In this document: piece after piece, positions 1,580 to 32,331 of the stretch
Layout of the letters: the number at the start of each line of letters is the position of its first letter
Numbering within the stretch: position 1 is the stretch's first letter
NCBI GenBank assembly: GCA_019096065.1
Contig: JAGUCH010000003.1
Location: forward strand, 3,162,001-3,226,000
From: Paracyclopina nana
Taxonomy: Eukaryota > Arthropoda > Copepoda > Cyclopoida > Cyclopettidae
DNA: 64,000 bases
Reading direction: 5' to 3'
Made by a program: the position numbers and the translations under genes
The notes under the pieces: generated by a model
Told to the model about the DNA's origin: nothing
The model's database searches: none
Seen by the model: the letters and a program-made list of their open reading frames with translations, nothing else

Positions 1580-3118
1580 TTTAAATGGCTTTTACGCCTT
1601 TTAAAAGTAGCACTACTTGTACTAGGTGAGAATTGACAGTTGATTTGACTTCAAGGTAGTAAGCCTGAAAAAGGGTCCATTTTTTGGCCAAAATTGGTTT
1701 GCTTGCGAAGCATCAGAAGTGATGTAGCACTTTACAAGCCATTTTGACTTGGTTTTAACAATGATATTTTGCCACAATTTTGCCACTTTCATTTTTTCTT
1801 ATTTGAACCGTTCAAATAATTAAAACAATAAAATAATCATACTACAATTAGCAAAATTGTGATGCTTAGAGCTAGTTTAAGATCGGTAAACTTTGTTGCT
1901 AAGCACTTATCTACATGAATACACGTATACATGCGTCCATCAAAAAGCGGACTAAATAAGATTCCTGATAAAAAAGCCTGTAATGTTTAGGACTTCATAT
2001 ACTAGGACTTTTTACATGAGGATTTCATATGTAAGGACTTTTGACTTTGCTGACTTATCCTCTTGAGAAATTATTAATTATTCTAATTAAGACTGGCAGC
2101 ATGAAACAATAAGTGAAAACTATCTGTTTTAATTCTATGTGTTTTTTAGAGTAATTGCCTGTTATCTGTTCTCAAATGCATTTTTTATGTGTATTTAGTA
2201 GTGTGCGTTGCGTTTGTGTGCTGTATTTAGATACACATTAGCACTGAGACAGTTGATTTTTAGCTTAACATCCTCCACATATTTTTCGATAGATAGCGAC
2301 GAAATGATTTGGACCTCTGAAGCATGAAAGCGCCCTATATTGTTGCCATAGTGCCCAATGCCAAGTTACTTCAACTTGTAATTGTCTTTGAGGAAAATAT
2401 GCTAAAAATAGGGTATGCACTTTTCTAATAGTCCATAGTTAAGAAAGTACACAAGGCAGCTGATAACATTAAAAGTGCATTTTCCAAAAATTGATCTGAG
2501 AACTAAGTTTTACAGCAACGCAGAGCTCGGTCACACTAAACGCCATGCTTTTCGCGATTGCAGCAGCAATCATCCAATGGTATCAATAGCAAAGACGGCT
2601 AAATTGCCTCCTCTGCAGACAATACAGCAAAATAGAAAATGAATTCTTCATTGATCCATGGCAAAAAAGCACTATATTGCTGTTAGAACGTTCGCTTTAA
2701 AAGTATCACTATCTTTCAAGCGTTTTTTGTTTGACCGTTCAAAATTGGACGGTACGGGAATCTACACTTTTTGTCACATATTCAATTTATACAGGACTTT
2801 TAAATGATATCGTTGGAAAGATTGAGCCTTTTTCCATCTTTTTTGTATTATTGTATTATTGTATTATTGTATTATCACATTTAGTTGTATTATCACATTT
2901 AGCTGTGACCTATGTCAGAATCCAATTTCCAGACAGGAAACTGTACCAGGAAACTGTACCAGGATATCGACCAGGATATTGACCAGGAAGTAAATTGTGG
3001 TCCAGAAAAATGGAAAAATGTCTCTGACCCCCTGCGGGATTCGAACCTGGTACAGTCTGTTTTGTAGCCAGACACTCTACCAGTGAGCCACCTGAGACAC
3101 ATACTTTATCCTTAATTT
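1580..3118. other. intergenic AT-rich region, no gene seen
   Basis: No credible coding exon was found here. A short microsatellite of TTGTATTA and TATTATCACA-type units lies at about 2842-2905, and a short reiterated ACCAGGA motif lies at 2930-2990. A degenerate tRNA-like sequence follows on the minus strand. Confidence 0.5.
3022..3100 (-). other. tRNA-like pseudogene or SINE-head-like sequence
   Basis: On the minus strand the sequence shows a D-arm/A-box (TGGCTCACTGGTAGAG) and a T-loop/B-box (GGTTCGAATCCC), with a partly paired acceptor stem (6 of 7 pairs if an extra bulge is allowed). A T-run that could end Pol III transcription follows. The T-arm region is too long and the T-stem is imperfect, so it is probably a tRNA-derived relic rather than a working tRNA. 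Confidence 0.4.
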
Positions 3119-3540
3119 TATCTGCTACTTACTTAATTGAACACTTCAGGGCAGGCCGTAGGCCTGCCAATTAACATGAAGCTTCAATGGTATGCTGTAG
3201 GTTTGCCATTACATAGTAATTGTGGAGTGAGCCGAAGGTCCACCCTCCACATTTAGCAGAATCAAATTATCTGCTACTTAATTGAACACTTTAGGGCAGG
3301 CTGTAGGCTTGCCATTACATAGTAATTAGGGAGTGGGCCGAAGGAATCAAATTATCTGCAACTTAGTTGAACACTTTAGGGCAGGCCGTAAGCTTGCCAT
3401 TACATAGTAATTAGGGAGTGGGCCGAAGGCCCACCCTTCACATTTAGCGGAATCTAATTATCTTCTACTTAATTGAACACTTTAGGGCAGGCCATAGGCT
3501 TGCCATTACATAGTAATTAGGGAGTGGGCAGAAGGCCCAC
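3119..3540. repeat. tandem repeat of about 90-140 bp, target of the large insertion
   Basis: Four to five imperfect copies share the order CTGCTACTTAATTGAACACT, GGGCAGGC-GTAGGCTTGCC, CATTACATAGTAATTAGGGA, GTGGGCCGAAGGCCCACCCT, CACATTTAGCAGAATCAAAT. The fifth block resumes at 9911-9945 on the far side of the 6.4-kb element, which shows that the repeat was the insertion target. Confidence 0.75.
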
Positions 3541-3595
3541 GGCCGCGACTGCATAGGCAGGGATCAAATGCAAGCAAAACTTAGAATTTTTTCGC

Positions 3596-4170
3596 TGTGT
3601 ATGCCCGAGTTCACCCATGTTCGCTGTGTTCGGCCGTGTTCGCTGTGTTCGGCCGTGTTCGCTGTGTTCGGCCGTGTTCGCTGTGTTTGGCCGTGTTCGC
3701 TGTGTTCGGCCGTGTTCGCTGTGTTCGGCCGTGTTCACTGTGTTCGGCCGTGTTCGCTGTGTTCGGCCGTGTTCGCTGTGTTCGGCCGTGTTCGCTGTGT
3801 TCGGCCGTGTTCGGTCGTGTTCGGTCGTGTTCGCTGTGTTCGGCCGTGTTCGCTGTGTTGGCTGGTGTTCGCCGTGTTCGGCCGTGTTCGCTGTGTTCGG
3901 CCGTGTTCGCTGTGTTCGGCCGTGTTCGCTGTGTTCGGCCGTGTTCGCTGTGTTCGGCCGTGTTCGCTGTGTTCGGCCGTGTTCGCTGTGTTCGGCCGTG
4001 TTCGCTGTGTTCGAATGTGTTCGCTGTGTTCGGTCGTGTTCGCTGTGTTCGCTGTGTTCGCCGGTGTTCGCTGTGTTCGGCCGTGTTCGCTGTGTTCGGC
4101 CGTGTTCGCTGTGTTCGGCCGTGTTCGCTGTGTTCGGCCGCGTTCGCTGTGTTCGGCCGTGTTCGCTGTT
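3596..4170 (+). repeat. minisatellite, 9+10 bp compound unit (left arm)
   Basis: The array alternates GTGTTCGCT (9 bp) and GTGTTCGGCC (10 bp) to give a 19-bp compound unit, with variants such as GTGTTCGGTC and GCCGGTGTTCG. Because 19 is not divisible by three and the unit has no stop codon, all forward frames and some reverse frames stay open. The long Cys/Arg/Val-rich reading frames here are artefacts. The same family, inverted, forms the right arm at 8696-9835. Confidence 0.9.
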
Positions 4171-6360
4171 GAGTCAAGTTGACTCAAACTATCAGCTGCA
4201 ACTGACATTTTGACTGAAATTTGACTCAGTCAAGAATTTTGCGTTTTCATAGCAGTCACCTAGTAGCATAACGCGATGCGCAAGTTTCGGCATTTGCGAA
4301 TTCAAAAAGTGTCATAAGTTTGACTTTGCCTCACATTAATTTTGAGTCAAGTTGACTCAAACTTTCAGCTGCAACTGACATTTTGACTGAAATTTGACTC
4401 AGTCAAGAATTTCGCGTTTTCATAGCAGTCACCTAGTAGCATAACGCGATGCGCAAGTTTCGGCATTTGCGAATTCAAAAAGTGTAGTAAGTTTGAGTTT
4501 GCCTCACATTTTGAGTCAAGTTGACTCAAACTATCAGCTGCAACTGACATTTTGACTGAAATTTGACTTGGTCAAGAATTTCGCGTTTTCATAGCAGTCA
4601 CCTAGTAGCATAACGCGATGCGCAAGTTTCGGCATTTGCGAATTCAAAAAGTGTCATAAGTTTGACTTTGCCTCACATTAATTTTGAGTCAAGTTGACTC
4701 AAACTTTCAGCTGCAACTGACATTTTGACTGAAATTTGACTAAGTCAAGAATTTCGCGTTTTCATAGCAGTCACCTAGTAGCATAACGCGATGCGCAAGT
4801 TTCGGCATTTGCGAATTCAAAAAGTGTAGTAAGTTTGAGTTTGCCTCACATTTTGAGTCAAGTTGACTCAAACTATCAGCTTCAACTGACATTTTGACTG
4901 AAATTTGACTAAGTCAAGAATTTTGCGTTTTCATAGCAGTGACCTAGTAGTATAACGCGATGCGCAAGTTTCAGCATTTTCGAATTCAAAAAGTGCCTTA
5001 AGTTTGATTTTGCCACACTATTTGAGTCAAGTTGACTTAAACTATCAGCTGTAATTGACATTTTGACTGAAATTTGACTCAGTCAAGAATTTCGCGTTTT
5101 CATAGCAGTCACCTAGTAGTATAACGCGATGCGCAAGTTTCGGCATTAGCAAATTCAAAAAGTGTAGTAAGTTTGACTTTGCCTCACATTTTGAGTCAAG
5201 TTGACTCAAACTATCAGCTGCAACTGACATTTTGACTGAAATTTGACTTGGTCAAGAATTTCGCGTTTTCATAGCAGTCACCTAGTAGCATAACGCGATG
5301 CGCAAGTTTCGGCATTTGCGAATTCAAAAAGTGTCATAAGTTTGACTTTGCCTCACATTAATTTTGAGTCAAGTTGACTCAAACTTTCAGCTGCAACTGA
5401 CATTTTGACTGAAATTTGACTAAGTCAAGAATTTCGCGTTTTCATAGCAGTCACCTAGTAGCATAACGCGATGCGCAAGTTTCGGCATTTGCGAATTCAA
5501 AAAGTGTAGTAAGTTTGAGTTTGCCTCACATTTTGAGTCAAGTTGACTCAAACTATCAGCTGCAACTGACATTTTGACTGAAATTTGACTAAGTCAAGAA
5601 TTTCGCGTTTTCATAGCAGTCACCTAGTAGCATAACGCGATGCGCAAGTTTCGGCATTTGCGAATTCAAAAAGTGTCATAAGTTTGACTTTGCCTCACAT
5701 TAATTTTGAGTCAAGTTGACTCAAACTTTCAGCTGCAACTGACATTTTGACTGAAATTTGACTAAGTCAAGAATTTCGCGTTTTCATAGCAGTCACCTAG
5801 TAGCATAACGCGATGCGCAAGTTTCGGCATTTGCGAATTCAAAAAGTGTAGTAAGTTTGAGTTTGCCTCACATTTTGAGTCAAGTTGACTCAAACTTTCA
5901 GCTGCAACTGACATTTTGACTGAAATTTGACTCAGTCAAGAATTTCGAGTTTTCATAGCAGTCACCTAGTAGCATAACGCGAAGCGCAAGTTTCGGCATT
6001 TGCGAAATCAAAATGAATCAAAAGTTTGACTTTGCCTCACATTTTGAGTCAAGTTGACTCAAACTTTCAGCTGCAACTGACATTTTGACTGAAATTTGAC
6101 TTGGTCAAGAATTTCGCGTTTTCATAGCAGTCACCTAGTAGCATAACGCGATGCGCAAGTTTCGGCATTTGCGAATTCAAAAAGTGTAGTAAGTTTGACT
6201 TTGCCTCATATTTTGAGTCAAGTTGACCCAAACGATCAACTGCAATTGACATTTTGACTGAAATTTGACTTGGTCAAGAATTTCGTGTTTTATTAGCAGT
6301 AAAGTAGAAGTACCGCGCGATGCGCAGGTTTTCTCTCTAGCGAATTCAAAATGAATCAAA
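4171..6360 (+). repeat. satellite of about 171 bp with dimeric (173+169) higher-order unit
   Basis: About 13 monomers begin at 4171, 4344, 4513, 4686, 4855, 5024 and so on. Each starts with the palindrome GAGTCAAGTTGACTC and contains CATAGCAGTCACCTAGTAGC and GCATAACGCGATGCGCAAG. Two monomer types alternate: one ends TCATAAGTTTGACTTTGCC with an extra ATTAATTTT (173 bp), the other ends TAGTAAGTTTGAGTTTGCC (169 bp). This gives a dimer of about 342 bp. Small reading frames in it are repeat artefacts. Confidence 0.9.
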
Positions 6361-7165
6361 AGTTTGAGTCAACTTGACTCAAAATGTGAGGCAAACTCAA
6401 ACTTACTACACTTTTTGAATTCGCAAATGCCTAAACTTATTGATTTATTTTGAATTCGGAAGAGTGAAAACTTGCGGATCGCGTGGTACTTTAACTTTAC
6501 TTCTTATAAATCATGAAATTCTTGACCAAGTCAATTTTGATAGTTTGGGTTAACTTGACTCAAACTATGAGGCAAAGGCTCATTATCTTATCGTGGAAGA
6601 TAATGAGCCAAAGTCAAATTTTTGATGTGCCTTTGGCCTTGCTGTTAAAAGAGGCTTTTAAAGGTCTTACTATGGAGTGGTCATAGCCATTCATGTCTCA
6701 TTATGGAGTGGTCTTATTGCATGTCCCATCAGTGTATAATAAGATAGGAAAAGTCAGACTGAGTCCCATCAGTGTATAATAAAACCAAAAGGTCCCATCA
6801 GTGTACAATAAAAATAGAATGTCTCAGATTTTGATGAAACTTGGCAAAATGATAGATTTTAGGGTCTAGTTTCAGAAAAAAATTACCCCAGCTCCCTCTG
6901 ATCACCAGGAGCTGAGAAATCGCCGAGTGGTCAATTTGTCCATCAGTGCTACATACGTCCTTCCTTTAACCACTCGTCCTATCAGTGCTACAGTGCGCAC
7001 GAATATATGTGTGCATTTTGAATTTGGCACTTTTTGAAGCTAAAAGATGTGTTAGATCAAGTTTTGTCTGCTATCTCTGAAATAGACTCTTCTACTAAGC
7101 TTTTACTAAACTGTTGACTCTTTTTGAGTTCGCAAGGGTGAAAACTTGCGCATCGCGCGGTACTT
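6361..7165. repeat. junction between the two satellites with inverted monomer pieces
   Basis: The first 200 bp is a degenerate satellite monomer in inverted orientation (GAGTCAACTTGACTC then TGTGAGGCAAACTCAAACTT). Then come three short direct repeats of GTCCCATCAGTGTATAATA at about 6724-6808, and two CATCAGTGCTAC copies. The segment GAAAACTTGCGCATCGCGCG recurs at its right edge. No gene is seen. Confidence 0.6.
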
Positions 7166-8695
7166 CTACTTTTTAATTGCATTTTTTGACAAAGGCCAAA
7201 CTTTGGCCTTTTTTTCATCTAGTTTTGACAAGACTGGTCTCCTAGTGCAAAATAAGATCTGAAAATAGCATATTTTTTTGCAACTTTTTGAGCTTGGAGC
7301 GAAACACGCGTAACGTGAATAATTGCTAGAGCAAAATTGCATTTTTTGACAAAGGCCAAACTTTGGCCTTTTTATCATCTAGTTTTGACATAACTGGTCT
7401 CCTAGTGCAAAATAAGATCTGAAACTGGCATATTTTTTTGCAACTTTTGAGCTTGGAGCGAAACACGCGTAACGTGAATAATTGCTAGAGCAAAATTGCA
7501 TTTTTGACAAAGGCCAAACTTTGGCCTTTTTTCATCTAGTTTTGACATGACTGGTCTCCTAGTGCAAAATAAGATCTGAAACTGGCATATTTTTTTGCAA
7601 CCTTTTGAGCTTGGAGCGAAACACGCGTAACGTGAATAATTGCAAGAGCAAAATAGCATTTTTTGACAAAGACCAAACTTTGGCCTTTTTTCATCTAGTT
7701 TTGACATGACTGGTCTCCTAGTGCAAAATAAGATCTGAAACTGGCATATTTTTTTGCAACCTTTTGAGCTTGGAGCGAAACACGCGTAACGTGAATAATT
7801 GCAAGAGCAAAATAGCATTTTTGACAAAGACCAAACTTTGGCCTTTTTTTCATCTAGTTTTGACATGACTGGTCTCCTAGTGTAAAATAAGATCTGAAAC
7901 TGGCATATTTTTGCAACCTTTTTGAGCTTGGAGCGAAACACGCGTAATGTGAATAATTGCAAGAGCAAAATAGCATTTTTGACAAAGACCAAACTTTGGC
8001 ATTTTTTCATCTAGTTTTGACATGACCGGTCTCCTAGTGCAACATGGGATCTGCAACTGGCATATTTTTTTGCACCTTTTTGAGCTGGGAGCGAAACTCG
8101 CGTAACGTGAATAATTGCTAGAGCAAAATTGCATTTTTGACAAAGGCCAAACTTTGGCCTTTTTTCATCTAGTTTTGACATGACTGGTCTCCTAGTGCAA
8201 AATAAGATCTGAAAATAGCATATTTTTGCAACTTTTTGAGCTTGGAGCGAAACATGCGTAACATGAATAATTGCTAGAGCAAAATTGCATTTTTGACAAA
8301 GGCCAAACTTTGGCCTTTTTTTCATCTAGTTTTGACATGACTGGTCTCCTAGTGCAAAATAAGATCTGAAACTGGCATAATTTTTTGCAACATTTTGAGC
8401 CTGAAGCGAAAATCCCGTAAAATGAATCAATACATGAGCAAAATTGCAATATTTGACAATGACCAAATTTTGGCCTATTGTTCATCTAGTTTTGACATGA
8501 CTGGTCTCCTAGTGCAAAATAAGATCTGAAACTAGCATATTTTTTTGCAACTTTTGAGCTTGGAGCGAAACTCGCGTAACGTGAATAATTGCAAGAGCAA
8601 AATTGCATTTTTGACAAAGACCAAACTTTGGCCTTTTTTCATCTAGTTTTGACAAGACTGGTCTCCTAGTGCAAAATTAGAACTGAAACTAGCAG
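7166..8695 (-). repeat. satellite of about 158-160 bp
   Basis: Nine to ten monomers share ACAAAGGCCAAACTTTGGCC, CATCTAGTTTTGACATGACT, GGTCTCCTAGTGCAAAATAA and GAGCTTGGAGCGAAACACGC. The CATCTAGTTTTGAC block starts at 7216, 7376, 7533 and 7692. Open frames on the minus strand that span several monomers are artefacts of the array. Confidence 0.88.
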
Positions 8696-9835
8696 CAAAT
8701 ACGGGCAAACGCAGCGAACACAGCGAACACAACGAACACTTCGAACACGGGGGAACACACCGAGCACAGGCGAACACACCGAATACTGCGAACACAACGT
8801 ACACGGGCGAACACACCGAACACGGGCCAACACACCGAACACAGCGAACACACCGAACACGGGCGAACACACCGAACACGGGCGAACACACCGAACACAG
8901 CGAACACGGCCGAACACAGCGAACACGGGTGAACACAGCAAACACGGACGAACACACCGAACACGGGCGATCAAGGGCGAACACACCGAACACGGGCGAA
9001 CACACCGAACACACCGAACACGGGCGAACACACCGAACACGGGCGAACACACCGAACACAGCGAACACACCGAACACAGGCGAACACACCGAACACGGGC
9101 GAACACACCGAACACGGGCGAACACACCGAACACACCGAACACGGCCGAACACAGCGAACACGGGTGAACACAGCGAACACGGACGAACACACCGAACAC
9201 GGGCGATCACGGGCGAACACACCGAACACAGGCAAACACACCGAACACAGCGAACACACCGAACACGGGCGAACACACCGAACACAGCGAACACACCGAA
9301 CACGGGCGAACACGGGCGAACACAGCGAACACGGCCGAACACAGCAAACACGGCCGAACACAGCGAACACGGCCGAACACAGCGAACACACCGAACACGG
9401 GCGAACACACCGAACACGGGCGAACACACCGAAAACGGGCGAACACACCGAACACGGCGAACACGGCGAACACACCGAACACGGGTGAACACAACGAACA
9501 CGGGCGAACACACCGAACACGGCCGAACACACTGAACACGGGCAAACACACCGAACATGGGCGAACACACCGAACACGGCGAACACGGCGAACACACCGA
9601 ACACGGGCGAACACACCGAACACGGGCGAACACGAGCGAACACAGCGAACACAACGAACACGGGCGAACACGAGCGAACACAGCGAACACGAGCGAACAC
9701 AGCGAACACGGCGAACACACCGAACACGGCGAACACACTGAACACACCGAACACACCGAACACGGCAAACAGCCGAACACACTGAACACACCGAACACGG
9801 CGAACACACCGAACACACCAAACACGGGTTCACAC
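8696..9835 (-). repeat. minisatellite, inverted right arm
   Basis: This is the same family as 3596-4170 in the opposite orientation, with units CGAACACAGCGAACACGG and CGAACACACCGAACACGGG. It is about twice as long as the left arm and more varied. Reading frames up to 365 codons here come from the unit length and are not genes. Confidence 0.9.
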
Positions 9836-9910
9836 GGCGTAATCCATATTTTTTGTGAAAATAAATCTAAGTTTTGCTTGCATTTGATCCCTGCCTATGC
9901 AGTCTCGGCC

Positions 9911-11039
9911 AAGGCCCACCCTCCAGATTTAGCAGAATCAAATGAAAAGGAGACGTCCACATTGGAACTAGTATGATTATTTGTAAGCCCTTTGCATATA
10001 CTGAGCAGGCAACCTGAAATTTGGCACGTGCATTCCTCTCCCAATCGTGCATGATCTTTATTTGGGCCATTTTGTTTCCCCACCAAATGACAGACTTCTA
10101 TTTTTCTCTGCTCTCAAGAAACAAAAAGAGTTAAATTTTTGTGTGCTACTCCCATTTTGCCAGGGCTATAATTTGTATTAATGACTTTTTTTCGATTCGG
10201 ACCCCCAAGGGTACTTGTACCAAGCGTTTTTAGTACATTTACAATATCTCCAGCAAGCCTTGGCCAAATGAAGTGAATTTTTGCGTGGAACCCTTATTTT
10301 GCATTCCCCATAACTTTATAAGTATCATTTTTACCCTTAAGTGATTCTTCAAAATTGTAGGCCCATGTCATGTTTTTGTTATGATCATCATTGGATAGAC
10401 TAGAATAACATAGTATCTTTGGGGGTGGCAAATCATGTTCATCCTTCTAGCCCATCCATAGACTGTATGTTTTAACTGTCAATCCAAGGACTCTTCTACA
10501 TCAGAGTAGTCAATCCAAGGACAGTTCTGTTTTGTCAATCCAAGGACTAAGTTTTTATGGTCAATCTTTGGACTATCTGTTGTAGTCTATCCAGAGACAC
10601 TATTGTATGTTCTAGGCAATACAAGTATGGCCACCCATTATCAGTTTCTATTATCAGTTTCTAAGTGTTCATCCAGATCAGCTACTCAGTATATTTAATG
10701 TGTACAGTGTAATCTTAAGAGGCTAGATGAAGTAAGAGTGGCATGACATTTTCTTGGTGCAAAAGTACAAGCCGCCATAAAACTGAGCTTTTCAATATGT
10801 TCATCAATAAACCAATCGTTTTGTAGGCTTAAAATGTTGCTTCATAATCTTCTTCGCGGAAAATGTCTCACAAGATGAAGCAGCGATTTTGTTTTGCTTA
10901 ACATGCTTAACATGCTTAACATGACCCTTAAAAAAATTGTCTCGTTTCGCAAGAACAGAAAACGACAACAAAATACTTACTTCTGATTGGTCATTGAAAA
11001 TTTGCACCTGATTTTGATTGGTCCAATAATGTCATGCAG
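9911..11039. other. intergenic region with dispersed repeat copies
   Basis: The region starts with the 9-bp target duplication and the resumed tandem repeat. Positions 9950-10270 match 18440-18790 in inverted orientation (for example CAGGCAACCTGAAATTTGGC and TTTTGCCAGGGCTA), so this is a dispersed repeat. A single foldback arm follows at 10440-10626. Three copies of the 9-mer CTTAACATG occur at about 10897-10925. No gene is seen. Confidence 0.65.
10440..10626 (-). mobile_element. solitary arm of the TTGGATCGAC-motif foldback family
   Basis: It carries several copies of GTCAATCCAAGGAC and GTCTATCCAGAGAC, and ends in CAAGTATGGCCACC. This matches the right terminus of the intact foldback at 15858 (CAAGTACGGCCGCC). 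The opposite arm is missing. Confidence 0.6.
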
Positions 11040-15020: not shown

Positions 15021-15858
15021 GGACTCCTACCCTTGGATCGACAACGGACCGTCCGTGGATAGACTACGACGAACCGGCCTTGGATCGACGAAACAGATCA
15101 TCCCTGGATAGACTACTACAACGGACAGTCCCCAGATCGACAAGACGAATCATCCTTGGATCGACTATTAGAACACTCAGTCCTTGGATAGACCAAGACT
15201 GACATGTATTTTGTTAGACAAGAAAAACGAACTGTACTTGGATCGACGAGACAAACCGTCTTTGGATCGACTATGAGAACATACAGTCCTTAGATCGACA
15301 GACAGATCGTCCTTGGATAGACAAAAGACGGGTAGTACTTAGATCGACGAGACGAATCAGACTTGGATCGACTGGGAAAACGGACAGTACTTGCATCGAC
15401 TGGTCGAATGTCCAGAAAATATGCTAGTTTCAGTTACTTTTGGCACTTTTGATATTTCATCATTTGGTAGTCTATCCAAGGACAGTCTGTTCTAACAGTC
15501 TATCCAAGGACAGCTCTTTCTAGTCTATCCAGGGACAGTTTGTCATTGCAGTCTAACATTGTACAGTACGTTCTAGCTGTCGATCCAAGTACGATCCGTT
15601 TTTCGATGCAGGGACAGTCTGTTCTGTCAGTCTATCCAAGCACAGTTCGTTCTAGTCGACCCAAGTCCTGCTAAGTCATAGTAGTCGATCCAAGGACTAT
15701 CCGTTTCGTTGATCCAAGGACTGTTTGTCTTCATAGTCGATCCAAGGATGATCCGTCTCGTCGATCCAGGGACTATGGGTTCTGTCTGTCTATCCAAGGA
15801 CGATATGTTGTAGTCTATCCAGGGACAGTATGTCCTAGTCGATCCAAGTACGGCCGCC
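15021..15858. mobile_element. 838-bp foldback element made of iterated TTGGATCGAC motifs, 9-bp TSD
   Basis: The left half carries many copies of CTTGGATCGAC, CTTGGATAGAC and TGGATAGACTAC. The right half carries them reversed (GTCGATCCAAG, GTCTATCCAAGG). The halves form two long imperfect inverted arms around a short spacer at about 15410-15465. Termini are GGACTCCTACCCTTGGATC and, reverse-complemented, GGCGGCCGTACTTGGATC. The 9 bp CCTAAATTT is found on both sides (15012-15020 and 15859-15867). Taking out the element and one duplication restores the reading phase of the RNase H domain. It has no coding capacity. Confidence 0.85.
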
Positions 15859-23785: not shown

Positions 23786-25138
23786 ATGCCTGTCGAACGA
23801 TCTCCTCCTCGCACCTCTGCAAACGAGGAGCTCGGGGCGTCCCCAGACAGCCACGAGTTGGGGCCACACCCCACCGGGCTCCAACAACGCTTTGAAGCCG
23901 ATCTAAGCACCCTCGGGGCCCACGGGGCCGCCGCCGGGAGCCGTCCTGGCCTAGACCCTCTTGGGTTTCCGCGGAACCGTGGATCGGCCGCTGAGGCTGC
24001 CACTGGGACCAGGCCTCGCGAGGCTAGGGCGGATCCGCCAAACCAACCAACCAAGACCGACCCGGCCGGCGCCAACCCCGACACCGAGGGGCTGTCGCAG
24101 TCGATGCTGCTGCAATTCCTGAAGTCCATGGAGGCCCAGCGGCAGGCGGATGCACAGGCCCGCAAACAGGAGGCCGAGCTACGGCTCTTGGAGATTAACA
24201 CCCGCCGTCTCGAGGCTGAAAACGCCGCTGCTCGTTCCGGGCGCAAGCGCAAACTTGAAAAGTTCGAGGACACGGAAGCTGACAAGTGGCTCACCTTCCG
24301 CCTTCATGTGGAGGCCACCTTCTTGGGGTCCAAGGACACCGAGGCCACCAAGAAACTGGAGGTCAAGCATGCCATGGTGGGCGCGGCACTTCGTACTATC
24401 AATGAGGTAGATCTGTTCCTGACGGACGAAAGCTTCACCCTCAAGCACCTGCTCGACGCCTACGAGAGGTTCTTCGTCACCGCTACGTCGTCCCAGGTGG
24501 CCCGTATAGCCCTCGAAACGGCCCATCAGCGCTCTGATGAAGGGATTCCCCAATGGCACGCTAGACTGCGCAGCATCTTCGTCCGCGCCAAGCCTGAGCT
24601 GGCCAAGGAGGTCGAGACCTACCCCGACTTGATCCGTATGTTTGTGACCAAGCTTCACCGCAAGGATGTGGTCATGGGCATCGCCGGGCACAAATTCACC
24701 ACCATGGCCGACGCCTTGGAAGCTGCCAGTCAAGCTGAATGTTGGTTGTCGTTGGGGCAAGGTAAAGGCCGCGTCGCCGCCATGATTCCCGGAGCCGGCG
24801 ACGACTCCACGGTCGTATGCTTCTACTGCGAGCGTAAGGGTCACCGCAAGAGCGAATGCAGGACCCTCGACTCCGACAAGCGTAATGGCCGCTACGACTC
24901 CAAGATCGACAAGTGGGCTCACGCAGCTTCCCTCAACAAGGACCAGGCGGCTCGAGGACAGAGTTCCAGAGGTCGAGGACGAAGGCGCGCCTCCGACCAG
25001 AAAAGGACCTCCGATCGGCAAGGCTCGTCGAACAAAAAGCCTCGAGTCAATGAAATCTACGAGGCCAAGCCCAAGGAAGAACCCGAATCCGAGGCCTCGG
25101 ATGATGCGGCGCCGGGAAACGACTCGACCCGGTTGTAG
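23786..25138 (+). CDS. gag: retroelement gag polyprotein
   Basis: An intact 450-codon frame starts at ATG 23786. The N-terminal part is Pro/Gly/acidic, then a charged helical stretch rich in Ala, Glu and Arg (about residues 105-150) leads into a capsid-like region. A CCHC zinc knuckle, CFYCERKGHRKSEC, lies at about residue 347. The C-terminus is basic and Arg/Gly-rich (RGQSSRGRGRRRASDQ), typical of nucleocapsid. It is followed after 74 nt by pol in another frame. It would form the particle and bind the genomic RNA. Confidence 0.88.
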   Translation: MPVERSPPRTSANEELGASPDSHELGPHPTGLQQRFEADLSTLGAHGAAAGSRPGLDPLGFPRNRGSAAEAATGTRPREARADPPNQPTKTDPAGANPDTEGLSQSMLLQFLKSMEAQRQADAQARKQEAELRLLEINTRRLEAENAAARSGRKRKLEKFEDTEADKWLTFRLHVEATFLGSKDTEATKKLEVKHAMVGAALRTINEVDLFLTDESFTLKHLLDAYERFFVTATSSQVARIALETAHQRSDEGIPQWHARLRSIFVRAKPELAKEVETYPDLIRMFVTKLHRKDVVMGIAGHKFTTMADALEAASQAECWLSLGQGKGRVAAMIPGAGDDSTVVCFYCERKGHRKSECRTLDSDKRNGRYDSKIDKWAHAASLNKDQAARGQSSRGRGRRRASDQKRTSDRQGSSNKKPRVNEIYEAKPKEEPESEASDDAAPGNDSTRL

Positions 25139-25212
25139 AGAGCTCCAGCCGGGTCCCCTCACCTTCCTCCATATTAGCGGCTCTCGACCACATCGCCAGT
25201 CATCAACGATTC

Positions 25213-28200
25213 ATGGCCCAAGTCCCGATCCGCATCGGCAAGATCAAAGCCAGTGCCCTGGTCGACAGCGGCAACAGCTGGCGCACGTGCATCTCCGAGA
25301 ATTTTGCTCGCCGACTTGGAGTTCTTCCACACGGTCTCCGGCCCATGCTCGACATGCCCGCGGTGGGCACCGCCCACGCACAGCAACGCCTCCAGGTCCT
25401 GGGGGAGTTACGGCAGCCACTGCGAGTGCAGCTGGGTAACCACCCTCACTCCTTCTCTATCCGACCCGCAGTGGTACGGAACCTCTCCATGGATTTCAAC
25501 TTGTCAGGGCCATTCTTGAGCCACCACCGCATCGACCAGCTCCACTCCCAAGGGACCCTGCGCGTGCACGGGAAGCAGATCCCGCTGGTGGGCGCCCTCC
25601 AACCCGCTGAGGATCAGGAAGAGTACGAAATCCGGATTCTGCGGCCCGTCAATATTCCAGCCCGCACTGTCACCCTGGTGGCCGCCGTAGCCCCTCACTG
25701 GCCCCACGGGTCCACGCGGGCCGCCGCCCTCGAGGCAGAGCCCCAGTTTGCCGCGCAGACGCAGCTGGCGCCCTGGAACATTGCATTAGTCCAGCCGCGG
25801 GCCGGCGGCAGCCTGGCAGTTGGGGTGCTGAACCCCCTGGATCACCCGCTCCGCCTTAAGGGCGGAGTGACCTACGGCACCCTCCGTGTCTACGAAGAAA
25901 GCGAGGGCCCCAGCGGAACCGAGGCTACTCCCTCGGTGCACGCGGTGCGCACGCCGGTCACCACCCGCAGTACCAGCCGAAAGCAGTCGGAGTCCGATGC
26001 CAAGCGCCGTTACGAGCAAGCCAACCTTATCATTGACACCTTCAAGCTGAACGAGAACGACATGCTCAAAGGGAACCCCAAGCGGCTGGCACAAGCCGCC
26101 ACCCTGCTCGCGGCCCACGTCGGAGCCTTTTCATTTGACGGCCGCACGGGGCAGACCACACTGGTCGAGCACGCCATAGACCTCAAGCCTGGGACAAAGC
26201 CCATCAACATCCGTCGGCGACCCATCAATCCGAACCTCGAGGCGTCCCTGAAGGAACAGATCCAGAAGTGGTTGGATGAAGAAGTCATCACGCCCATCAC
26301 TTCGCCGTGGTCCGCGCCTCTCGTCCCCGTCCGCAAGAAGGATGGCACGCTGCGATGGTGTGTAGATTATAGGGAACTCAACAAGGCCACTGTAGTCGAC
26401 TCACACCCCATCGGAGACGTCAGGGACAACCTCAGCCGACTTGCCCGCTCCACAGTGTTTTCGACGTTGGACGCGGTGGGTGCCTTTAACGTGGTTCCCA
26501 TTCGGGCAGAGGACGTGGAGAAGACCACCTTTTCCACAGGAGACGGCTCATACGCCTTCCTCAAGATGCCCTTCGGCCTCACCAATGCGCCCAAGACATA
26601 CAGCCGCCTCAACAGGATGGTTCTGGAGGGCATATCATGGGACGTTGCCCTGCCATACCTCGACAATTGCTTAGTCCATTCAACCGACTTCGAGTCCCAC
26701 CTCCGCAACTTGCGCCTGGTGCTGCAGGCCCACGAGAAAGCAGGACTCCTGCTGAAGCCGTCCAAATGTCACCTGTTCCAATCCAGAGTGACATACTTGG
26801 GGCATGTTGTCACTCCTCAGGGCCTCGAGGTCATGCCAGCCTACATTGACCTCATCCGTGAATGGCCCTTGCCTAACACCAGGAAGCAGCTGCGTATCTT
26901 CCTTGGCAAGGCCAATTATTACCGATCCTTCATTGAGAGGTACCAACATGTCGCGGCGCCCCTGTCGGACAAGCTCTCCAAGGACGACGGCACCAGCGAC
27001 AACCATGTTTTCCAACCCAGCCCGGAGTTCCGGGCCGCTTTCGACGAGCTCAAGAAGAGGCTGACCTCTGCGCCTGTACTGGCCTATCCGGACTTCGCCT
27101 CGCCTAACCCCTTCATCCTGGACACGGATTTCTCACAAGAAAACAGGGCTGTTGGGGGGGTCCTTTCCCAAGTCCAAGATCGCAAGGAAAGAGTCATCTT
27201 ATACGGCGCCAAGAAGCTGAACGCCGCTCAAAGCAATTATTCCGCTAATCAGGGCGAGCTGGTGGCCGTAATAATTTTCATCAAGCAATTCAAGTATTAC
27301 CTACAACACCGCCGTTTCATCCTGCGCACTGACCATCGGGCCCTCCTCTGGATCCGCTCCATGGAAGCGCCCACGGGAATGCTGGGCCGATGGCTCGACA
27401 CCATCTCCAACTACGACTTCGAAGTGGTACACCGGGCAGGAGTGAAGCACGGCAACGCCGATTCCCTCAGCCGAGCGCCCCACCTGGCACGGCGGGGTGA
27501 CCATATCAGTTCAGACGTCTCTGATGATGACTTTTTCCGGGTGGCTAATCTCAAGCTGATTCCCACGAAGCCGGAAGCGTGGGCTGCGGCCCAGGAGGAG
27601 GACGACGACCTGGTCCTTCTAAGACAGCTCGTCCGACTGAAACAACCGCCCTCGCAGGAGAACCTCAACGCCGCATCACCTCGAGGTCGCGTGCTACTGG
27701 AACAACTAAGTTCCATGACCATGGATCGGCAAGGTGCTCTTCGCTTGCTGGATCGGAAGAGGCAAACCTCGCGACTGGTGGTGCCCCGCCAGTGGCAGGA
27801 AGCCAGCCTCCGCCACGTACACGACACCATGGGACACCAAGGGCGCGACTCCGTGGTCCACAGGGCAGCTCAGCACTTCTACTTCCCAGGCATGACGCGT
27901 CTGGCCGATGAAGTCGTCAATTCCTGCCTCCTTTGCCAGCGGTCCAAGCCGGGCCAGAAAAATCAATTGCACACCCTCAAATCGCATTACGCGGGCTACC
28001 CGTTCCAGATCTTGAGCCTTGACTACGTAGGGCCGTTCCAGCCTTCGTCGAACCGTCACCGCTACTTGTTCACCGCTAAGTGCGTCTTCACCAAATGGAT
28101 CGAAGCTTTCCCGTGCAGTTCCAATGATGCTGAAACAGCCGTGCGGTTTTTGACGACCGAAATCATCCCTAGATTTGGCCTTCCAGAGAGACTACACACC

Positions 28201-29562
28201 GATCAAGGGACTCATTTCACGGCCCATCTCATGCGGGAAGTATGTGCGGCCCTTGGGATACAAGCCACCACTACTCCTTCATACAACCCGCGCAGCAACC
28301 CGGTCGAACGGGCGCATCGGGATCTCAACGAGCTCATCAGGAAGATGGTCAAGGGTCGATACGCGGACTGGGCCGAGGTTGTTCCCTTCGCCCTCTTCGT
28401 CCTCCGTACCACCAAAAACCGCTCCACGGGCATGGCACCATATGAAATGGTTTTCGGTCGCCAACCGTCAACCAACCTGGACTTGATCTTTGGAGACCCG
28501 CAGCCGGCTGTAGCAAAGGCCACGCAAGCAGGCCGATTCGCCAAGCAACTGAAGGAGCGAATACAACTGGCGCATGAATGGGCACGGAAAAACATCTCCA
28601 ACTCGATCGAGCGACAACGACGGGCCTACCACATGGACAAGCGTGCGTTCATAGTGGGACAGAAAGTGTGGCTGTTCACCCCGAAAGTTATTCCACGCAT
28701 CTCCAAAAAGCTACAAACCTTCTGGACGGGACCTTGGACAATTGAAAAACAAGTGAACGAGCTCACTTACGAAATAGCACCAGACCCGTCTTGGGCTCGA
28801 GCGCGAAACCAGGTCGTCTCGGTAGACCGCCTTAAGTTGTACATCCCACCTGACCAAGATCAAGGCAACGTGTCTACTGCACCACCGGCCGAGGATTTGG
28901 ATCTGTCCATGTTAGGCGACGAATCCGCCGAATTCCTCGCGGACCCGCAAAATGAAGTCGCGGCGGAGCCCGCTAATGACCTCGCTGTGCCTTATGAATA
29001 TGCGGTGGCCCCGACGGACAGAGAATATGGGTTCCCAGAAGCCCGAGATGACCCCATCCCGGCCTTCAACGACGACCCCACGATACCTGAATACGACTGC
29101 ACCCGGTACCCATCCGATTCGGATGAACGCCCATCCACACCGGATAATGAGTCTCCACAGAATACTCCACAACTGCCAAGCCCTCCTACAGACGATGATG
29201 AGCCCAGGCGCACTAGCACAGTGGTGAAAAGGAAACGACGATCAAATGCAGAAATGTTGCAGGCTGACACCGAACGATTCTTAGGCGGACCAGAGGCGGT
29301 CACCAAACGGTCTAGATCCAAAACACGCAGCGGTGACAGGAAAAGCACGACCGACGAGGATACGTTACCACTGCAGCATTTACAGGCCAACCCGCCAACC
29401 GTGCATCAAGCAACTAGGTATCTGCTCCCACCGCTAGAACCGCGGCCACTACCTCTTCGACCGACCATCCCGTCACCAATCAAAGAGGCCTCTCACTCAA
29501 CATCATCGTCGGCACCGTCAGCAGCTACCGCAGAAACGTGCGACGACGTGTTCCAGGACTAA
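25213..29562 (+). CDS. pol: retroelement pol: protease, RT, RNase H, integrase
   Basis: One open frame of 1449 codons. Order: aspartic protease (ALVDSGNS, about residue 17), RT (about 350-560), RNase H (D in DTDFS about 637, E in GEL, D in TDHRA, D in ADSLSRAP), integrase zinc finger (MGHQG ... CLLC), integrase core with D (SLDYVGPF, about 936), D (HTDQGTHF, about 995) and E (NPVERAHRDL, about 1030), and a GPY/F-type module (TGPWTIEK). A long Pro/acidic tail follows. The RT catalytic box reads YLDN (about residue 481) where YxDD is expected. The frame is otherwise undamaged. Expression relative to gag would need a -1 shift or reinitiation. Confidence 0.9.
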   Translation: MAQVPIRIGKIKASALVDSGNSWRTCISENFARRLGVLPHGLRPMLDMPAVGTAHAQQRLQVLGELRQPLRVQLGNHPHSFSIRPAVVRNLSMDFNLSGPFLSHHRIDQLHSQGTLRVHGKQIPLVGALQPAEDQEEYEIRILRPVNIPARTVTLVAAVAPHWPHGSTRAAALEAEPQFAAQTQLAPWNIALVQPRAGGSLAVGVLNPLDHPLRLKGGVTYGTLRVYEESEGPSGTEATPSVHAVRTPVTTRSTSRKQSESDAKRRYEQANLIIDTFKLNENDMLKGNPKRLAQAATLLAAHVGAFSFDGRTGQTTLVEHAIDLKPGTKPINIRRRPINPNLEASLKEQIQKWLDEEVITPITSPWSAPLVPVRKKDGTLRWCVDYRELNKATVVDSHPIGDVRDNLSRLARSTVFSTLDAVGAFNVVPIRAEDVEKTTFSTGDGSYAFLKMPFGLTNAPKTYSRLNRMVLEGISWDVALPYLDNCLVHSTDFESHLRNLRLVLQAHEKAGLLLKPSKCHLFQSRVTYLGHVVTPQGLEVMPAYIDLIREWPLPNTRKQLRIFLGKANYYRSFIERYQHVAAPLSDKLSKDDGTSDNHVFQPSPEFRAAFDELKKRLTSAPVLAYPDFASPNPFILDTDFSQENRAVGGVLSQVQDRKERVILYGAKKLNAAQSNYSANQGELVAVIIFIKQFKYYLQHRRFILRTDHRALLWIRSMEAPTGMLGRWLDTISNYDFEVVHRAGVKHGNADSLSRAPHLARRGDHISSDVSDDDFFRVANLKLIPTKPEAWAAAQEEDDDLVLLRQLVRLKQPPSQENLNAASPRGRVLLEQLSSMTMDRQGALRLLDRKRQTSRLVVPRQWQEASLRHVHDTMGHQGRDSVVHRAAQHFYFPGMTRLADEVVNSCLLCQRSKPGQKNQLHTLKSHYAGYPFQILSLDYVGPFQPSSNRHRYLFTAKCVFTKWIEAFPCSSNDAETAVRFLTTEIIPRFGLPERLHTDQGTHFTAHLMREVCAALGIQATTTPSYNPRSNPVERAHRDLNELIRKMVKGRYADWAEVVPFALFVLRTTKNRSTGMAPYEMVFGRQPSTNLDLIFGDPQPAVAKATQAGRFAKQLKERIQLAHEWARKNISNSIERQRRAYHMDKRAFIVGQKVWLFTPKVIPRISKKLQTFWTGPWTIEKQVNELTYEIAPDPSWARARNQVVSVDRLKLYIPPDQDQGNVSTAPPAEDLDLSMLGDESAEFLADPQNEVAAEPANDLAVPYEYAVAPTDREYGFPEARDDPIPAFNDDPTIPEYDCTRYPSDSDERPSTPDNESPQNTPQLPSPPTDDDEPRRTSTVVKRKRRSNAEMLQADTERFLGGPEAVTKRSRSKTRSGDRKSTTDEDTLPLQHLQANPPTVHQATRYLLPPLEPRPLPLRPTIPSPIKEASHSTSSSAPSAATAETCDDVFQD

Positions 29563-29870
29563 TACAAACCAAGTGCAAAAAGGCCATAATACGCACCAAT
29601 ATTGCTCCCTCATGACAAAGTTTGGGGGGGTACACACATTTATGCCACATTTATGCCATATTTCATATCACATATGTATCATAACTGCATTATTAACACA
29701 TGCTCATGCTATATAAACCATGACATTCGGGCGCAAACACTAACAAGACAAACAAGCGTATAATAATCATTTACCTTCTCTCTTGCAGTCTGAGTTAATA
29801 ACCAACTACCTCCTAAGCGAAGGGAATTTATAAAGTGTACACTAGCTCACCACTACGTACTACGTCCACC
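29563..29870 (+). promoter_or_regulatory. pol-env spacer with purine tract, TATA-like box and splice acceptor
   Basis: The spacer contains seven consecutive G residues at 29624-29630, a TATATAAAC sequence at about 29709-29718, and a strong splice acceptor (TTCTCTCTTGCAG, AG at 29787-29788) 83 bases before the env ATG. A spliced subgenomic env mRNA, as in errantiviruses, would fit. The G-tract could be a second polypurine priming site. Neither role is proven. Confidence 0.45.
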
Positions 29871-32331
29871 ATGCATCCAGGTCATTGCTTGTGCAGTCCC
29901 ACGCTGATGCTCCTCGTCTTCTTTGGATACAGCTACTGGATCCTCCTCAACGAGGTGGCCCAAGCAGCAGCCTTCCCGGGGCAGTCACCACGACCAGCCG
30001 ATTTGTACACCCCAGACGCCAAGGTGACCTCGTTCACCACCTATGACTGCGCGCATCCAGATGCCATGTACGAAGCTATCGACCTGAGCCAGCCTGAACT
30101 CTGTGAAGATATTCGCAGCTCTTACCAGTCGCCGGTTAATATCACGATTCAGGTACTGCAGACGGCCTCGACCCTCTCCGTTAAGGCATACCGGTGCCGA
30201 GTGCACATATCGCGGGAAGTTACCCGCTGTGGATATGATAGCATCAGTTATGGGAGTCAAATGACGGACGTAAATAGGCCCTACCTGGTAACGCCGCAAG
30301 CCTGCCGAGACGCCGCCGAGAAACGCTTCCTGCTGGTGGAAGATAAGAAGGTCCAAGTCACGCTCAATACCCCCGTGTCCCTGTCGTACTTCTCCAAGGG
30401 TGGGCTCGATAAGGATCACAAGTGCACGACGACTACTTTCACCAGTGGTGGCGTGACATTCTACAAATCGTATGAAACCACCACGATCCACGCGCTGGTG
30501 GAACCGATCTACGGGAAGCTAAACACGGCCCATGGGCGGGTGGTCTTCTCCAACCACCTTACAGCCAACTTCCAGGACTTGATCGTGCAGGACGACGCCG
30601 AAGGCACCATTGTGTGGCCTAAGCGCAAGACCCCCCGCTGCGAAGATGAACTGAGCGAAGTATACAAAGGGCCGGCCGTTCTGTACCCTCACCGCAACTC
30701 GTCCAGCTTCAGCGGCAACACGGGTCACCTAGGAGACCTGCTCCTCCTCGCCCACGAAGAAGAATCGCGGTTCGCGGGATTCGTCCTCAAGGGCGTGCAG
30801 TCCATGTGCCAGCGGCGGCTGTTCACCACTCAGCTCCGCGACTTCGCTGTCTTGATCGTGGGACCCGGGATGGACCCCTCCAAGCCAAGTACCTTCACCC
30901 GGAGGACATGGACGGTGCGAATATACAGACACAGCTGGCATTCGTGCATTCGCAGCACGCGCTGCATATCCAGGACCGATTCAAGTTCCTCCAGGAACTT
31001 ATCTGCAAGAACGAACGATCGATCCTGCACTCCAAGCTTCAGAGTATGGCGTCCGGCTCCTCATCGTACGCCACCCTTGATAGCCACGGACCAGGCCATC
31101 TAGTCACCCGTGCCGGGGCTGTAGCCTATGTTACCTCCTGATACCCGGTGCAAGCCGTCACCAGGTCTATTGCGAACTGCACACAGGAGATTCCCGTGCT
31201 GGTGAACAACGAGACCCGATTCGCGGACCCTCTCTCCTTTGTGCTGACTGACCGGCCCAGCGTGGTCCCATGCGATTCCATCACCCCAATTAAATGGAAG
31301 ATCCACAATCAGTGGATGTGTGCCACCCCCAGATCCACGCCTGTATTGCCCCTACGCAACTCAACCCCATGTCGGACGCGGCTCCCCGGAGCGGACATTA
31401 CGACATCAGTCGAGGACTAGGGGTGGAGTGTTCTCGGCGGAACAGCGGGCCAACCATATCCTCTACCTCCACTTGTTTAGCAGTCGGGAGGCCGTGGTGA
31501 ACACTATCACTAGTAACGTGCTCCACAACTCGCTTATCACGGGCAGCAGGTCGACTACGCTTATGGACGCAGGAAGACATTGATCAAATGGTGGATCATG
31601 TCGGCAGCGCGATTATTCCTTTCTTCAGCTCAGTAGGGAAGTATTATTCCTACTTCACAGGGACTCTCATCACCATCGGCCTGATCAAGTTGATCCTCGG
31701 AGCCGTCATCCAGATGATCATCCTGTACCGACGGCGCGGACTGGGTTGGTGGATGTTCTTGGCTCTGTGGCATACGGCCTTCCTTATGGTCGAGATGCCG
31801 TGGCGGATGCTTACCAACCTTGGGCACGACCAGATTCTGTTCCCTGGCGGGGACGACGATGACGAGGACCAACCCCCAACACGCGGCAGGCGCCGACCTC
31901 GAAACCGGGAAGGACCCGAGGCGTACCCCCTGGCCGCCCTCAGCGATGGAGACGAAGAGGATGACGACGAGGCACCCCCTAAGTACGGGGTCGCAGAACC
32001 GGGAGAAACCGATGGACCCCGCCGGTCTGGATTCCGCCAACGCATGAGGGAGGCTCTATTTAAAGAACAAGACGGCCTCTACCGGAACCTGCAGGCACAG
32101 GTCGACGCGCTGGCGAGACAGAACAAGACCATGCACAACTACATTATGGCTGTGCTCCCCTCGGCTCCGGCGCCCAATACTGTGGCCTCCGCGACCTCGA
32201 CGCCCCTGAAGTCACCGATGGAAGGAGGAGCGACCACCGGTCCACCTATCTCCCCTGTACCTCCGGCCGCGGGATCCCCCCGACATAGGGTGCCAGCATT
32301 GCGCCGTGAGGACACGGCCACGCTTCAATAG
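29871..32331 (+). pseudogene. env: env-like glycoprotein of chuvirus/mononegavirus type, frameshifted
   Basis: An ATG at 29871 starts a signal-peptide-like segment. A cysteine-rich ectodomain follows whose spacing (YDC near the start, a conserved YRC...V...CGY block, then a PQACRDA block) resembles the glycoprotein of chuviruses, a family also known from endogenous arthropod elements. The frame is broken near 30890, again near 31140, and again before 31588, so the middle of the protein is spread over three frames. The last part (31588-32331) has two hydrophobic segments and a long acidic cytoplasmic tail. The domain assignment is by pattern only. The copy cannot encode a full-length product. 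Confidence 0.7.

Follow-up and report, generated by a model that had tools for sequence, protein, structure and literature searches.

Structure of the element and its empty site

Positions 3541-9910 of the window, the 64,000-nucleotide stretch of DNA analysed here, hold what we take, with a probability of about 85%, to be a single copy of a non-autonomous foldback-type DNA transposon with a loop of satellite DNA (Table 1). A first-pass annotation had described its termini as inverted near-copies, and the left end is indeed identical to the inverted right end at 48 of 51 bp, compared with 21 of 51 in the best of 200 whole-window shuffles. The ends come in two subtypes, L and R. The empty site reported earlier was also recovered, as the joined flanks match the host tandem repeat at 77 of 84 bp across the join, free of gaps. 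The inverted minisatellite arms and two unrelated satellites seen previously are both present, with satellites A and B giving no blastn match to one another at an E value of 1e-3. Arms run on a step of about 9 bp, the 19-bp unit of family 1 being 9 + 10.

Table 1. Features of the element and its flanks (window positions)
Feature	Positions	Strand	Details
Host tandem repeat, insertion target	3259-3540	.	85- and 106-bp periods; empty-site join
Target duplication, left copy, AAGGCCCAC	3532-3540	+	exact relative to right copy
Left terminus (L subtype), begins GGCCGCGACTGCATAGGCAGGGATCAAATGCAAGCAAAACTTAGA	3541-3591	+	48/51 bp identical to right terminus
Left minisatellite arm, 19-bp unit TGTTCGCTGTGTTCGGCCG	3618-4169	+	tandem-repeat content
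Satellite A array, ~171 bp (169/342-bp periods), ~12.5 copies	4169-6367	+	junction with arm common to E5, E11, E16 and E20
Inverted pair closing the satellite A array	6261-6538	.	arms 6261-6371 and 6428-6538, 83%
Non-array middle	6368-7174	.	part 6591-7170 common to E5, E11 and E20 at 97.9-99.6%
Satellite B array, 159 bp (159/317 periods), ~9.6 copies	7175-8694	+	tandem-repeat content
Right minisatellite arm, 19-bp unit GCGAACACACCGAACACGG (19/9 periods), inverse of left arm	8714-9816	-	
Right terminus (R subtype), left end inverted	9826-9910	-	
Target duplication, right copy, AAGGCCCAC	9911-9919	+	

No gene was recognised within the element, in agreement with the earlier reading of its interior: open reading frames of at least 150 amino acids are confined to the arms, their edges or satellite B, and a Pfam scan of two of the six frames of the non-array middle returned no match. 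The inverted pair that closes the satellite A array may be what remains of a foldback with satellite-A arms, namely its loop and a truncated second arm. Outside the element, a tRNA-like region at 3020-3105 was checked with ARAGORN, which called no tRNA there.

Terminus families and target-site duplications

The family-1 terminus, searched as a 38-bp pattern with up to 3 mismatches, gave 42 matches in the genome and none with the reversed pattern. These form 16 inward-facing terminal-repeat pairs in this 92-Mb arthropod genome, the element at 3541-9910 among them, compared with a mean of 4.7 and a maximum of 9 in 500 strand shuffles (pairs within 40 kb), so that the genome-wide check suggested in the first-pass annotation did recover the terminus as inverted pairs. 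Gene searches place the genome among arthropods, the best named matches coming mostly from insects and otherwise from crustaceans and chelicerates; its source may be a copepod or another small crustacean. Two sister families have another terminus and another arm repeat than family 1. The sister terminus is likewise present as inverted pairs, with 7 family-2 pairs within 40 kb (500 shuffles: mean 2.0, maximum 6), and the third-family terminus has 99 matches (control 0) and 30 such pairs (500 shuffles: mean 12.1, maximum 23). A 16-bp core gave 78 matches, from which 16, all with 2 mismatches and near the control level (5), were dropped from the end lists; four further 2-mismatch core matches were retained on the grounds of a better-end partner or agreement with the longer terminus, and one of the 7 family-2 pairs (C1:10012250-10025586) depends on a 2-mismatch core match. 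With controls of 0 in three terminus searches, chance termini were rejected.

Both flanks were read for 23 elements. Exact duplications of 8 bp flank 16 of these and exact duplications of 9 bp flank 2, one of which is the element at 3541-9910; one further element has a 7/8 match, and the remaining four (E2, E3, E20 and S3) have no duplication. E2 and E3 count as a single event because their flanks are identical. Exact 8- or 9-bp duplications were thus present at 18/23 real sites but in 0/506 cross-combinations of flanks, confirming at other copies the kind of duplication noted at this one. The 9-bp length itself is exact at this copy, but the predominance of 8 bp makes that the usual duplication of the family, and 9 bp as a family-wide length was rejected. 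Across the families, 8-bp duplications occur wherever read, which for family 3 means the flanks of 1 of its 30 pairs.

Satellite arrays carried by the transposon

Satellite B is present in all 15 family-1 elements read and adjoins the R arm in each. Satellite A is present in one family-1 subfamily, represented by five copies at five sites, and the junction between arm and satellite A seen in this copy recurs in the other four (E5, E11, E16 and E20) with 97-98% identity over 100 bp. Four of the five shared-junction elements have exact duplications that differ from one another. The occurrence of one arm/satellite-A junction at five sites indicates that satellite A moved with the element, and the differing flanks of these copies argue against duplication of larger blocks. 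Transposons have therefore carried satellite arrays to new sites in this genome, as the first-pass annotation had proposed for a mobile unit, and the comparison of satellite content between copies that it suggested is what supplies the evidence.

The arrays vary in length from copy to copy, and monomers are more alike within arrays than between them (0.930 versus 0.889 for satellite B, 0.924 versus 0.844 for satellite A), a gap partly expected from shared descent. Satellite B is also common to families 1 and 3, whose termini are different: of the 15 satellite-B clusters that have no family-1 end and played no part in defining family 3, pairs of that third family enclose 7.

The direction of exchange could also have been the reverse, with satellites A and B born as transposon arms or loops and later becoming free arrays, as has been proposed for TIR-220 in D. 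virilis. We consider this a serious possibility that falls somewhat short of even odds, and it is compatible with the best explanation as regards the spread itself. By our reading, in 9 of the 29 satellite-A clusters drawn from the 150 top matches (of 349 and of 300) the two strands both carry arrays within 10 kb, in the manner of foldback arms, and published accounts, as far as their available text goes, place a 164-bp satellite in the inverted ends of Rehavkus-1_TC (PMC10218199) and a 220-bp repeat in those of Tetris (PMC4079207). Against an origin in arms, satellite B forms no part of the inverted arms in any family-1 copy read, and satellite A adjoins a pre-existing arm in this copy and looks like a secondary insertion.

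Classification, mobility and meaning

The elements have the features of foldback-type (class II) transposons: inverted arms of tandem repeats, flanking duplications, and a variable middle without a transposase in the parts of the middles scanned. Drosophila FB/NOF and sea urchin TU elements build their inverted repeats from short tandem repeats around a variable middle, a likeness of general description. Closer is Tetris, a Drosophila virilis foldback that, in the available portion of its description, is non-autonomous with a variable, gene-less middle and no autonomous copy found, has long inverted repeats in which a flanking domain accompanies internal tandem repeats, makes 8-10 bp duplications, and has a tandem repeat that also occurs in satellite-like arrays (PMC4079207). 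Compared by that partial description, Tetris differs in having repeats of about 220 bp in its arms, where the present elements have 9/19-bp minisatellite arms with 160-170-bp satellites in the loop, and in that several families of one genome share satellites here. Rehavkus, a DNA transposon of arthropods that is related to MULEs and has a minisatellite in its inverted ends (PMC6446971, PMC10218199), includes a Tribolium element, Rehavkus-1_TC, with the 164-bp satellite TCsat23 in those ends (PMC10218199). The excerpts consulted report a 9-bp duplication and a PHD-finger transposase, in contrast to the 8 bp in 16/23 elements and the absence of any transposase found here, and membership of Rehavkus was dropped on the stated duplication length (PMC6446971). 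Helitrons/DINEs, MITEs and pearl elements are likewise vehicles or sources of satellite arrays (PMC9659126, PMC12628747), but Helitrons are described as making no target duplication (PMC9659126), which excludes them given the duplications here, and the available passages on MITEs and pearl elements mention no minisatellite-armed foldback plan (PMC9659126, PMC12628747). In the literature as far as it was accessible, we found no account of minisatellite-armed foldbacks with satellite cores common to several families. The earlier remark that the layout could not be matched to a named family is qualified by the parallels with Tetris and Rehavkus-1_TC, and a layout with two satellites is a feature of a single subfamily, not of the whole family.

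Transposons of the hAT, P and Merlin types make 8-bp or 8-9-bp duplications, with hAT strictly at 8 bp. The same mobile unit might have been moved by a transposase of one of these superfamilies, which is plausible without being favoured: 8-bp duplications predominate, and no MULE transposase was detected within any pair. The two exact 9-bp duplications, beside 16 of 8 bp among the 23 elements, suit a superfamily with an 8-11-bp range better than a strict 8 bp, the former being the range given for MULEs in the consulted part of PMC6446971. Counted on the same side is the report of G/C end bases in most arthropod MULEs (PMC13359780). Merlin was dropped, as the IS1595-type domain PF12762 has 0 matches in the genome (1 of 14 control genomes was positive); the hAT domain PF05699 also has 0 matches, which counts for little since all 14 controls were silent too. 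From duplication length and precedent, MULE is the best guess.

The search for an autonomous partner with these termini, suggested by the first-pass annotation, found none, and no transposase was recognised in any element read. PF10551 has 5 genome matches, none of which falls by coordinates within a pair of families 1-3. Element middles differ between copies. Among 166 stop-to-stop reading frames of at least 50 amino acids outside the arrays (17 segments), none of the 60 longest was recognised by eye. Six-frame Pfam scans were run on one arm of E6, on the final 2.4 kb of the E12 middle and on the middles of E8, E9 and E23. Together with the two-frame scan of this copy they gave two matches, LETM2_N (23.1 bits versus 27, E 8e-5) and ExsD_M (13.5 versus 27, E 0.08), each below its cut-off and taken as chance.

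We propose that a transposase supplied in trans, probably of MULE type, would recognise the terminal ~20-50 bp, and perhaps the arms too, and move the whole unit, so that satellite arrays would travel as passengers and seed new sites. After insertion, the arrays inside each copy may grow, shrink and homogenise. Satellite A would most likely have come into this subfamily with a foldback that had satellite-A arms, inserted into an element of family 1 and lost its outer end.

It is improbable that the satellites are instead ordinary dispersed arrays into which the transposon inserts, or which it gains site by site through unequal exchange or gene conversion, with no role as a vector. The clusters derive from searches with this element's own sequences, of whose 349 and 300 matches the best 150 each were used, and because the queries came from 3541-9910 the tally favours family 1. 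Among these best-150 clusters, neither an enclosing pair nor a facing end was seen for 18 of 29 with satellite A and 8 of 34 with satellite B, so that satellites apart from ends, an objection anticipated in the first-pass annotation, do in part exist; the sole end-less satellite-B array read (C9:2186140) adjoins a 105-bp tandem repeat instead of arms. Two elements also sit in satellite-A-like DNA, namely S3, whose flanks (90-92%) are contiguous in satellite A, and E4, whose flanks are 78% alike. Even so, among the same best-150 clusters 21/34 with satellite B lie inside a terminal-repeat pair and 5/34 have one facing end, where 1000 random placements enclosed a mean of 0.17 and a maximum of 2. 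This enclosure, the constant position of satellite B beside the R arm, and above all the shared junction with its different flanks stand against free satellites, and for the satellite-A subfamily the junction largely refutes them. Misassembly or collapse of a larger array, also raised earlier, is not credible. Tandem arrays are hard to assemble, and in the flanks of the E3 locus 300 bases are unread, but 16 pairs show the plan, independent sites have duplications that differ (exact in 18/23), and the empty site is intact.

More speculatively, and on balance doubtfully, at least three terminal-repeat foldback families, probably with a fourth armed by satellite A, might make up a satellite-shuttle system in which families insert into each other, have satellite cores in common and contain most dispersed satellite-B arrays, the arms being a modular platform that makes any satellite mobile. 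In such a system the arms would act as a transposase-binding array and a recombination substrate.

Tetris and Rehavkus-1_TC are close precedents; what the present elements add is the evidence from junctions and the sharing of satellites by several terminal-repeat families. Accounts of how satellites come to occupy fresh chromosomal sites usually rest on resemblance between satellite and transposon. Here the joints are directly visible, one arm/satellite join being present at five sites, of which four have an exact duplication of their own, and one satellite occurs in families with different termini. These visible joints mean that the model of a satellite seeded by a transposon, with later growth of the array in place, can be tested on individual copies in a small genome of 92 Mb and 10 contigs.

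The window element and its copies in the genome

The element in the window interrupts a host tandem repeat and is bounded on both sides by AAGGCCCAC, an exact 9-bp duplication. Joining its flanks restores the host repeat in a gap-free match of 77/84 bp, which, together with the near-identical ends, bears out the first-pass annotation of inverted termini and of an empty site that rejoins the host repeat. Its description of two unrelated satellites and no gene also stands: satellites A and B do not match each other, and no gene was recognised by inspecting open reading frames and scanning two of six frames of the non-array middle against Pfam. A tRNA gene placed by eye to the left of the host repeat (3020-3105, minus strand) was discarded, as ARAGORN found none in 2900-3250.

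Coordinates of elements and neighbouring features (C, genome contigs; E, family-1 elements; S, sister elements; L, locus labels)
Feature	Position	Loci	Description
Window	C3:3162001-3226000
Window element	window 3541-9910		left and right ends 48/51 bp identical; 19-bp minisatellite arm, satellite A (~171 bp), non-array middle, satellite B (159 bp), inverted minisatellite arm
Degenerate tandem repeats	window 15034-15848		24-53-bp units, TGGATCGAC-like and inverse, between open frames resembling LTR retroelement parts
LTR retroelement	window 23786-32331
E2	C2:194816-197830		no duplication
E3	C2:255757-259490		no duplication
E4	C2:511188-515933	L041	duplication TGCTGCTA
E6	C3:936993-960434	L044-L046	23.4 kb, 8-bp duplication
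E10	C3:5669184-5683188	L050-L051	inverted satellite-A arms; doubled block of 280-bp repeat with satellite B
E19	C5:7280779-7287013		complete family-1 element
E20	C7:1853856-1871450	L059-L060	nested LTR retroelement, pol-like and env-like open frames
S3	C2:12965817-12969449	L067, L068	no duplication
S4	C7:5062251-5070208		family 2
Family-3 pair	C5:7277785-7291665		encloses E19
Mini-element	C3:1146258-1147190	L073	933 bp, degenerate 9-bp arms
R ends	C1:5970633; C4:3436439		nearly same flank in both
Single family-3 end	C1:17714075		in C1:17714050-17718787
MULE-domain match	C1:17718506

Two genes in the window assign the genome to the arthropods, their nearest matches being unnamed sequences. Across the genome (91.95 Mb in 10 contigs), the 38-bp terminus pattern had 42 matches at ≤3 mismatches and its reversed form none; further terminus searches brought the family-1 ends to 46. 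These form 16 inward-facing pairs within 40 kb (strand-shuffle mean 4.7, maximum 9) and a single outward-facing neighbour pair, and the paired copies span 2.8-23.4 kb. Since the ends fall into two subtypes, L and R, the element has a polarity. Satellite B follows the R end and R arm in all 15 elements read whole, namely 14 of the 16 pairs plus E10, which lies outside the pair count because only its R terminus was found. E6 contains a near-perfect palindrome (arms of ~10,072 bp, 99.5% identical, ~450 bp apart); a six-frame Pfam scan of one palindrome arm gave a single match, LETM2_N, under the cut-off. The retroelement nested in E20 resembles, by eye, the one in the window.

Both flanks were examined for 23 elements. 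The 9-bp duplication first described is exact in the window copy, and E9 is the only other element with an exact duplication of that length; 16/23 elements have an exact duplication of 8 bp, one matches at 7 of 8 positions and four have none (E2, E3, E20 and S3). As a control, left and right flanks drawn from different elements gave no duplication in 506 combinations. E2 and E3 have identical flanks, and therefore look like copies of one locus and count as one event. E4 and S3 are inserted into satellite-A-like DNA, the flanks of S3 being contiguous pieces of it, so satellite arrays are targets as well as cargo.

Satellites inside and outside the elements

The proposal that the satellites moved as parts of a mobile unit gains support from one arm/satellite-A junction common to five elements (the window copy, E5, E11, E16 and E20; 97-98% over 100 bp), whose flanks differ and four of which have exact duplications. 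The non-array middle of the window copy is likewise found in E5, E11 and E20 (97.9-99.6%) and in E10 (87-94%), with no match in E16. Shared junction and middle within different flanks are most simply explained if satellite A joined one ancestor once and was distributed afterwards. Array lengths vary, from 365 to 6704 bp for satellite B (as reported by the repeat finder; broken in E23) and from 583 to 5204 bp for satellite A in the shared-junction subfamily. Monomers are more alike within arrays than between them (0.930 versus 0.889 for 92 satellite-B monomers; 0.924 versus 0.844 for 46 of satellite A), as expected of arrays growing in place, with shared descent contributing to the gap.

For satellite B, 34 clusters were built from the top 150 of its 349 matches: 21 are inside a terminal-repeat pair, 5 have a single facing end and 8 have no end of either kind. 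Random placement enclosed a mean of 0.17 and at most 2; this enclosure is partly built in, because the query came from family 1. A less dependent subset comprises the 15 clusters that lack a family-1 end and were not used for finding family 3; family-3 pairs enclose 7 of these. Among the eight clusters with no end, the one examined adjoins a 105-bp tandem repeat rather than arms. For satellite A (best 150 of 300 matches; 29 clusters), 9 are enclosed (in one case by a manually added 53-kb pair), 2 are one-ended and 18 have neither. We read 9/29 of these clusters as having both-strand arrays ≤10 kb apart, an arrangement resembling foldback arms, and this suggests a putative fourth family armed by satellite A.

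Sister families and nesting

Family 2 (terminus GGCCGCGACTGCATAGCCAGGT) has 17 ends, some recognised by a 16-bp core alone, in 7 pairs (shuffle mean 2.0, maximum 6), including one of 33.8 kb and one of 20.7 kb. Its arms are GTGTACAGC-type repeats, seen at length in S4 and as the arm start in other copies. S4 encloses a complete family-3 element with terminus GGCAGTGGCCAGATAACC, 27-bp minisatellite arms and a core of satellite B; this inner element is flanked by GTTTGTCA, duplicated exactly over 8 bp. A genome search for the family-3 terminus gave 99 matches (control 0), and its ends form 30 pairs (shuffle mean 12.1, maximum 23) and 6 outward neighbours. Because 15 of its first 26 bases agree by position with the family-1 terminus, the two families may be distantly related. 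The nesting differs between cases: family 1 lies within family 3 at E19, and family 3 within family 2 in S4. The mini-element has the same 16-bp core terminus and a target duplication matching at 7 of 8, and is possibly an old, satellite-free form.

Lags of 9, 18 and 27 are prominent in the arms of families 2 and 3, the mini-element and one inner arm of E18. Family-1 arms have a main lag of 19, which we read as 9 + 10, with weaker peaks at 9-10. Neither satellite gave a 9-step periodicity in the lag measurement.

Movement and relation to known elements

Many sites, then, have an inserted unit that carries satellite cargo between conserved ends, is flanked by a target duplication and shares internal joints with other copies. 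Such units would move by cut and paste, using a transposase supplied in trans, which the arms might, speculatively, bind. Our best guess for its superfamily is MULE, given the duplication length (8-11 bp in MULEs, PMC6446971), the G/C ends reported for most arthropod MULEs (PMC13359780), and the MULE placing proposed for Tetris (PMC4079207). The genome has five PF10551 matches, none inside a family pair by coordinates, and no match to PF12762 or to PF05699, the latter equally silent in control genomes. One of the five MULE-domain matches, outside every defined element, lies 4.4 kb from a single family-3 end whose element side faces away.

That foldback or MULE-like elements bear tandem repeats and can give rise to satellites is established by Tetris and Rehavkus-1_TC. 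To these the P. nana elements add three features, whose combination we did not find described in the abstracts, passages and listings searched: satellites in the loop, several terminal-repeat families with common satellites, and junction evidence for movement.
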